From an uncultured Erysipelotrichaceae bacterium (GTDB lineage: Bacteria > Bacillota_I > Bacilli_A > RFN20 > CAG-826), in assembly GCA_902803375.1 (NCBI GenBank), contig CADCPN010000008.1, forward strand, positions 1-39,294: 39,294 nucleotides of DNA. Reading direction: 5' to 3'. Position 1 is the stretch's first letter, and each line of letters starts with the position of its first letter. The translations under genes and the position numbers were made by a program. Below, one piece after another: positions 37,621 to 39,207 of this stretch. Below the pieces are notes generated by a model that was not told the origin of the DNA, searched no databases, and saw only the letters and a program-made list of their open reading frames with translations.

Positions 37621-38280
37621 TTATTCAATCGCAAAGATATAAGGGTAGACCTTTTGGTTGCCTTGGATCTCAATGAAGTCCACCATCTTAAAATTGGAGG
37701 CAATGTAATCACGCAATTCCGCTTTATCAGTTTCCGTGGTTTCCTCGCCTTAGAAGACGGTGATGGCACTCTTCTCTCCCATTTCTATGATGGAGGCGAA
37801 CAACGCGATTGTCGCATCCATCAAAGTCGGCTTGGCGCATTTGACTTCGCCGCCCTGGATTCCGATATAGTCGCCAGAATGAACTTCCACTCCGTTGTTA
37901 TGGGAATCTCTTACCGCGGTAGATATTTCCGCACAGATGAGGTTATTTAGAGAATCCTCAATACAGGAGAGATTATCTTCCAGTGAGCCATTTTCTAAGT
38001 CTAATAGGCCAAGGGCGCTATAGCATTCGACGACGGATTTCGATTTTACGACGGTGACTTTGGCACCTTCATAGGTCATGCTAGCCTGCTCCGCGGTAAG
38101 AATCACGTTGCCGTTATTGGGGAAGACGATGATATTCTCTGCCGAGACTTCCTCAAAAGCCCTTAGGAAGTCTTTCGCGGAGGGATTCATGGTCTGGCCG
38201 CCGACGGTGACGTCGGCGCCTTAATCCTTGAAGAGCTTTGCAATCTAAGGGGAGGGCGCAACCGCGACGGTTACGATCTT
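37621..38280 (-). pseudogene. fakA: Broken 3' fragment of fakA (DAK2/YloV family fatty acid kinase)
   Basis: The minus-strand frame from about 38280 to 37621 encodes the C-terminal third of FakA, the ATP-binding partner that phosphorylates fatty acids held by FakB. Landmarks are VTVAVAPS, then IAKLFKD, then GADVTVGGQTMNPSAKDFL, IIVFPNNGNVIL, STAVRDSHNNGVEVHSGDYI, ITVF, and the closing KVYPYIFAIE. In-frame stops interrupt it: TAG at 38247-38245, TAA at 38223-38221 (where Leu is expected) and TAA at 37752-37750 (where Tyr is expected). No insertion or deletion shifts the frame. The first two thirds of the gene are absent; the fragment ends at the palindrome at 38279. A middle part (38190-37750) remains as a 146-codon open frame. 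Confidence 0.85.
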
Positions 38281-38600: not shown

Positions 38601-39161
38601 TTAGGCTCTGCCGTCGTACTTGCCGGTGGTGGTGTCGACGGAAACCTTGTCGCCCTGGTTGATGAAGAGCGGGACGCGGATGGTGAGGCCGGTCTCTAGC
38701 TTGGCATCTTTGCTGCCGCCATTGGAAACGGTGTCGCCACGGACGCCCGGTTCGCACTCAACAACGGTGAGGGCAACCTTGGAAGGAAGCTGGATGCCGA
38801 GGATCTCGTCTTCGTACATGACGATGGTGACTTCAGCATTCGGAGCAAGATAGGGGATCTCGTTCTGGAGGGCCTGCTTGCCGATTTCGACCTGCTCATA
38901 GGTCTTGCCATCCATGAAGGCAAGGGTCTCGCCGGCGTCGTAAAGGTAATTCATGACCTTCTTGTCGACGTGGACATCCTCAACGCCATAGCCGGAGTTA
39001 CGGGCAAGTTCGGTGATGGCGCCAGTGCGCATATTCTTGACCTTGACCTTGGCGACCATCTTTCTCATAGCGGTCTTGTTGAGAAGGATGTCGAGGCAGA
39101 GATAGAGGTTGCCTTCGTCAACGAAATAGTTGCCGGGGCGGACTTCAGTAACGTTAATCAT
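38601..39161 (-). CDS. efp: Translation elongation factor P with atypical loop
   Basis: EF-P rescues ribosomes stalled at polyproline by reaching the peptidyl-transferase centre. The 186-residue protein has the KOW-like N-domain, then two OB domains (VMNYLYDAGETLAFMD; LPSKVALTVVECEPGVRGDT; GLTIRVPLFINQGDKVSVDT). It aligns without gaps with Bacillus EF-P at the N-terminus, which makes the loop clear: where Bacillus has KPGKGAA (29-35, with modified Lys32), this protein has KTAMRKM, so Met stands at 32 and the Pro-Gly pair is gone. AAGGAGA lies about 6 nt before the ATG. yneF follows in the same operon. Confidence 0.95.
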   Translation of the reverse strand: MINVTEVRPGNYFVDEGNLYLCLDILLNKTAMRKMVAKVKVKNMRTGAITELARNSGYGVEDVHVDKKVMNYLYDAGETLAFMDGKTYEQVEIGKQALQNEIPYLAPNAEVTIVMYEDEILGIQLPSKVALTVVECEPGVRGDTVSNGGSKDAKLETGLTIRVPLFINQGDKVSVDTTTGKYDGRA

Positions 39162-39207
39162 TCTGATTCTCCTTAGATTAATAAAAATGTTCTGTCAAAA
39201 TAGACCT

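Follow-up and report, generated by a model that had tools for sequence, protein, structure and literature searches.

The window (by which we mean the whole 39,294-nucleotide stretch analysed here) ends with efp, a minus-strand gene for an elongation factor P (EF-P) of the methionine-tip type. It is a complete open reading frame of 186 residues (38601..39161, minus strand), and a Shine-Dalgarno sequence, AAGGAG, can be read 7 bases ahead of its ATG (39169-39174, minus strand). The encoded protein carries the EFP_N, EFP and Elong-fact-P_C domains in that order, each above its Pfam cut-off; its AlphaFold model (mean pLDDT 86) has the L-shaped fold of three beta-barrels, and the best PDB matches of that model are themselves EF-Ps (6s8z, TM 0.91; 1ueb; 4v6a). 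In the model the tip loop sits between strands E18-28 and E36-43. The seven codons of this beta3-beta4 loop (39057..39077, minus strand) encode K29-T-A-M-R-K-M35, and a gap-free alignment places K29, T30, A31, M32, R33, K34 and M35 opposite the canonical KPGKGAA of Bacillus. The Met32 codon (39066..39068, minus strand) stands where B. subtilis has its modified Lys32, a position that we aligned across 170 EF-Ps. The tip thus shows neither KPGK with Lys32 nor the arginine of the rhamnosylated type, but KTAM with Met32, and the original prediction, that the PGK and the modifiable lysine are missing from this EF-P, is borne out here and clade-wide. A second, canonical EF-P, which would have spoken against that view, was sought in the same genome (1.67 Mb, 64 contigs, 88.5% complete) with two Pfam models, and only one EF-P was found, leaving slight room for a second copy that was missed; EF-P is likewise single in complete relatives (e.g., G005, 100%). 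No match to the protein was found in the viral contigs searched. Close to efp, a 146-residue open reading frame (37750-38190, minus strand) matches only positions 346-487 of the 530-residue YloV (DAK2 fusion) profile and is possibly a split or frameshifted gene.

The frequency of the methionine tip was taken from 50 EF-P genes of the genus, family and order, a sample that was not selected for the tip. KTAM is present in 46 of them (KTAMRKM in 33, KTAMAKM in 6, KTAMRQM in 5, KTAMRRM in 1 and KTAMRGM in 1), so the tip is not a matter of chance; the rest consist of one KSARGQM and three KPGKGAA. In the genus and family (30 genes), all eight residues from N28 to M35 are fixed, and synonymous variation is seen at the codons for Lys, Thr, Ala and Arg. 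The methionine tip is therefore fixed clade-wide under purifying selection, which answers the question raised beforehand of whether TAMRKM-type tips extend to related organisms. A DNA pattern scan of genome contigs, which selects for NKTAM and hence shows spread and not frequency, returned 118 matches, 112 of them EF-P, and among named genomes the KTAM tip turned up in Mycoplasma amphoriforme as well as in Holdemania filiformis and Dielma fastidiosa, besides a large number of uncultured Bacilli and Erysipelotrichaceae. The six matches that did not prove to be EF-P (which include Flavobacterium, Winogradskyella, Patescibacteria and Bacteroidia records) were discarded, as was a match in one genome of the phylum sample (G083) that is not EF-P. 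Candidatus Alloenteromonas pullicola, which belongs to the window's genus, has an EF-P 86% identical to the window's (L116, in genome G255, the coordinates of which agree with those of G013, a genome of the same genus). Within the phylum sample, methionine tips occur in families f1, f2, f3, f8, f25 and f29, those of f29 being mostly KTAMREG or KTAMRGG. The methionine-tip subfamily thus extends to Erysipelotrichales-type organisms and some mycoplasmas. In a signature set of 139 methionine-tip sequences (137 with the loop aligned), which was chosen partly by the NKTAM pattern itself, N28, K29, T30, A31 and M32 are invariant and M35 nearly so; P9, F13, I25 and D75 are further marks of the type. 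K29, the GDT region of domain III and the C-terminal Y182 and R185 are common to methionine- and lysine-tip EF-Ps. A contig labelled as a Staphylococcus epidermidis metagenome-assembled genome (L079) also holds an EF-P with a methionine tip, which shares 53% identity with that of the window; this bin is probably mislabelled or contaminated.

YnbB is required for the 5-aminopentanol modification in B. subtilis, and PF06838, which we take to be the YnbB family and for which B. subtilis was positive as a control, served as our marker because the YmfI profile cannot tell YmfI and FabG-like SDRs apart. The YmfI profile was accordingly rejected as a marker on its own. That the window holds no modification enzyme had been remarked from the start, and for EpmA and PF06838/YnbB this absence extends to the genome level. 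A PF06838 gene was absent from 20 of 20 methionine-only genomes, the window's own (G000) included (two gave weak matches to other PLP enzymes). EpmA was above its cut-off in none of the 20, with positive controls; the sub-cut-off matches are read, from the lengths of their open reading frames, as class II aminoacyl-tRNA synthetases. The proposed search for YmfI, EpmA and EarP homologues was thus clear for EpmA and less so for the other two: scanned with the YmfI profile, the window's own genome gives as its best match a gluconate 5-dehydrogenase (454.9 bits against a cut-off of 369), and the EarP profile, which found nothing in the 20 methionine-only genomes, was equally silent in the control genomes. 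No SDR gene adjoins the window's efp.

The original prediction had also named PGKG at this place in related genomes as evidence that would tell against it. Such tips do occur, in a minority: ten genomes of the methionine/arginine side (G044, G046, G085, G112, G130, G138, G144, G151, G158 and G225) hold a KPGKGAA EF-P as an extra gene with modification-type neighbours of its own, and one genome (G056) has a canonical KPGKGAA EF-P alone. In 11 of 11 cases the canonical efp is followed on its own strand by an SDR gene, at distances from overlapping to about 50 bases, with a PF06838 gene no more than a few kilobases off, its orientation differing from case to case (cassette loci L376-L378, L392-L394, L049-L051, L195 and L197). 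The cassette SDRs that were measured score about 150-180 bits against the YmfI profile, below its cut-off, and FabG profiles score better; position and homology suggest that they are YmfI-like. What the present analysis adds is the strict division of genomes into those with the methionine type alone and those with a canonical efp-SDR-PF06838 cluster, and the cassette points to genes that accompany a lysine-tip EF-P. Directly upstream of the cassette in G044 are HepT-like and MntA-like toxin-antitoxin genes (L051:4612-5533, minus strand).

EF-P activity is usually explained by a modified lysine or arginine that reaches the peptidyl-transferase centre. We conclude that the methionine tip is a real, clade-wide, catalogued but uncharacterised variant of EF-P. 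The most likely overall reading, to which we assign a probability of about 0.6, is that the window encodes a bona fide EF-P belonging to a subfamily with methionine tips, passed on vertically and fixed among these uncultured gut Bacilli, that it is most likely unmodified, and that it still serves the Pro-Pro-Pro of ValS. By analogy with the general EF-P mechanism, the protein would dock, as EF-Ps in general do, at the E site of a stalled ribosome, the beta3-beta4 loop would be pushed to the peptidyl-transferase centre, and the methionine would stand in for a post-translationally extended lysine or arginine. We infer in this way that the tip is unmodified, that the protein acts at polyproline stalls, and what part is played by Met32 and R33/K34, whose contacts would follow the same general mechanism.

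The chance that the tip reflects a sequencing or assembly error, or a gene in decay, is negligible: although the assembly is fragmented and incomplete, the same tip recurs in the 46 order-level genes of independent genomes with synonymous codon changes, and both the reading frame and the fold are intact. One could also envision a tip that is modified elsewhere, at Arg33, at Lys34 or at Met32 itself through some further enzyme, the first two of which had been put forward as alternative sites. At least one positive residue is indeed present at positions 33 and 34 in every methionine-tip sequence seen (RK, RQ, RR, RG, RE, AK or GK), and both positions are invariant within the window's genus and the nearest family members. 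However, neither is conserved clade-wide, which disfavours both as sites: position 33 carries either Arg or Ala (one partial match has Gly), with Ala in 16 of the 137 aligned tips, and position 34 may be Lys, Gln, Arg, Gly or Glu, with Gln, Gly or Glu in many. Together with the lack of a PF06838 gene and of any EpmA match above cut-off in methionine-only genomes, the lack of an SDR gene beside the window's efp and the gluconate dehydrogenase as the best YmfI-profile match, this makes modification elsewhere unlikely.

Alternatively, the methionine-tip EF-P may have a reduced or different role, for example at a subset of stalls, with polyproline left to YebC and ABCF proteins or simply avoided; we consider this quite unlikely, though several observations lean towards it. 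All 15 genomes tested have YebC and most of them an ABCF, and some relatives retain an extra canonical EF-P. Pro-Pro counts, made on partial genome samples with open reading frames called by a simple script, gave observed/expected ratios of 0.42-0.55 in four of five methionine-only samples as compared to 0.71-0.82 in three lysine-tip samples; in the sample of the window's own genome the ratio was 0.52, with no Pro-Pro-Pro against 5.4 expected. Such depletion could mean a weak EF-P, and YebC and ABCF might handle Pro-Pro-Pro in its place; both points count against the preferred reading of a working, unmodified EF-P. The count of polyproline motifs that had been recommended thus agrees with avoidance in most methionine-only samples but not throughout. 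The fifth, G194, has a ratio of 0.78 and 16 Pro-Pro-Pro motifs, some of them in Pfam-supported genes (DnaG, an Eco57I methylase) and several in other open reading frames that may be spurious. Nor does depletion track the tip cleanly, because G144, which has both a methionine and a lysine EF-P, is equally depleted (0.50); as a correlate of the methionine tip, with these two genomes out of line, depletion is suggestive only. Against a reduced role stands also the ValS motif PPPNVTG, which is kept in 14 of 15 methionine-tip genomes (the exception, M. amphoriforme, reads APPNLTG), including two methionine-only genomes without an ABCF match (G115 and G167), and K29 and the GDT motif of domain III are likewise kept. 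On sequence grounds, the proline data would fit an EF-P that is functional but perhaps weaker. A methionine-tip lineage that needs the Pro-Pro-Pro of ValS is a natural test of how much EF-P depends on modification, and the cultured members H. filiformis and D. fastidiosa make such an EF-P testable.

Methionine tips have been counted in two previous surveys (Volkwein 2019, PMC6544042; Sieber 2024, PMC11611912), in the first of which a methionine tip is never found with a proline two residues before it (0%), and the window's EF-P, with a methionine tip and no proline at -2, has the same combination. These surveys count the variant only; added here are the signature, the lineage spread, the copy number and the link to modification genes. 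Our literature search found no functional study of a methionine-tip EF-P and no paper that names KTAM together with elongation factor P. Precedents for EF-P action without known modification do exist: Mollicutes have no known EF-P modification enzymes and no EpmA, EpmB or EpmC homologues, and EF-P is nonetheless essential in M. genitalium and M. pneumoniae (PMC4014445), and E. coli EfpL is active with an unmodified arginine tip (PMC11611912). EfpL (YeiP) is, like the window's protein, of EF-P type, but its loop is extended, with arginine at the tip, and it mostly coexists with a modified lysine EF-P, whereas the window's protein has the standard seven-residue loop with methionine and its type is usually the sole EF-P. 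The EF-Ps of B. subtilis and Staphylococcus aureus, which are 5-aminopentanolylated at Lys32, share with it the family, the three-domain fold, the seven-residue loop, K29, GDT and the C-terminal Y/R; they differ in having KPGKGAA in place of KTAMRKM, with its lack of a lysine at 32, and the window's genome contains neither a PF06838/YnbB gene nor a YmfI-grade SDR. The arginine-type EF-P of Pseudomonas, rhamnosylated by EarP, is similar in its non-lysine tip and in lacking a proline at position 30, and differs in having Arg for Met; EarP itself gave no match here, with a silent control.

A tree of 60 EF-Ps, built with the loop columns removed and rooted for drawing only, splits with support 99/90 into a KPGK-related side, which includes two KSARSAA tips, and a side with KTAR, KTGR, KQGR and KTAM. 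Arginine and methionine tips have interchanged, with at least three label changes for methionine. Lysine has been proposed as the ancestral EF-P tip (PMC6544042), but with the root placed for drawing, the tree does not establish that tips went from lysine through arginine to methionine. On the lysine side, the canonical EF-Ps that come with the cassette cluster together with good support and are therefore not reversions of the methionine type. A wider picture, which we offer tentatively and at slightly less than even odds, would be a modification-free NK[TS]A[MR] branch that serves as the sole EF-P in many Bacilli and some mycoplasmas, with methionine replacing the modified lysine, while its relatives would, on repeated occasions, have possessed a separate efp-SDR-ynbB cassette in which a lysine EF-P is joined by modification-type genes of its own. 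Arginine tips appear among EF-Ps otherwise of the methionine type, as KTARSAM in G245 and G130 and as KSARGQM in G046 (L382, L387 and L046), and of these genomes G130 and G046 contain the canonical cassette as well. Arginine tips are also carried by Mycoplasma-like families, most of them with in-frame TGA (code 4), as KTGRQQG, KQGRGQA and KTGRAQG (L172, L173, L184 and L391).
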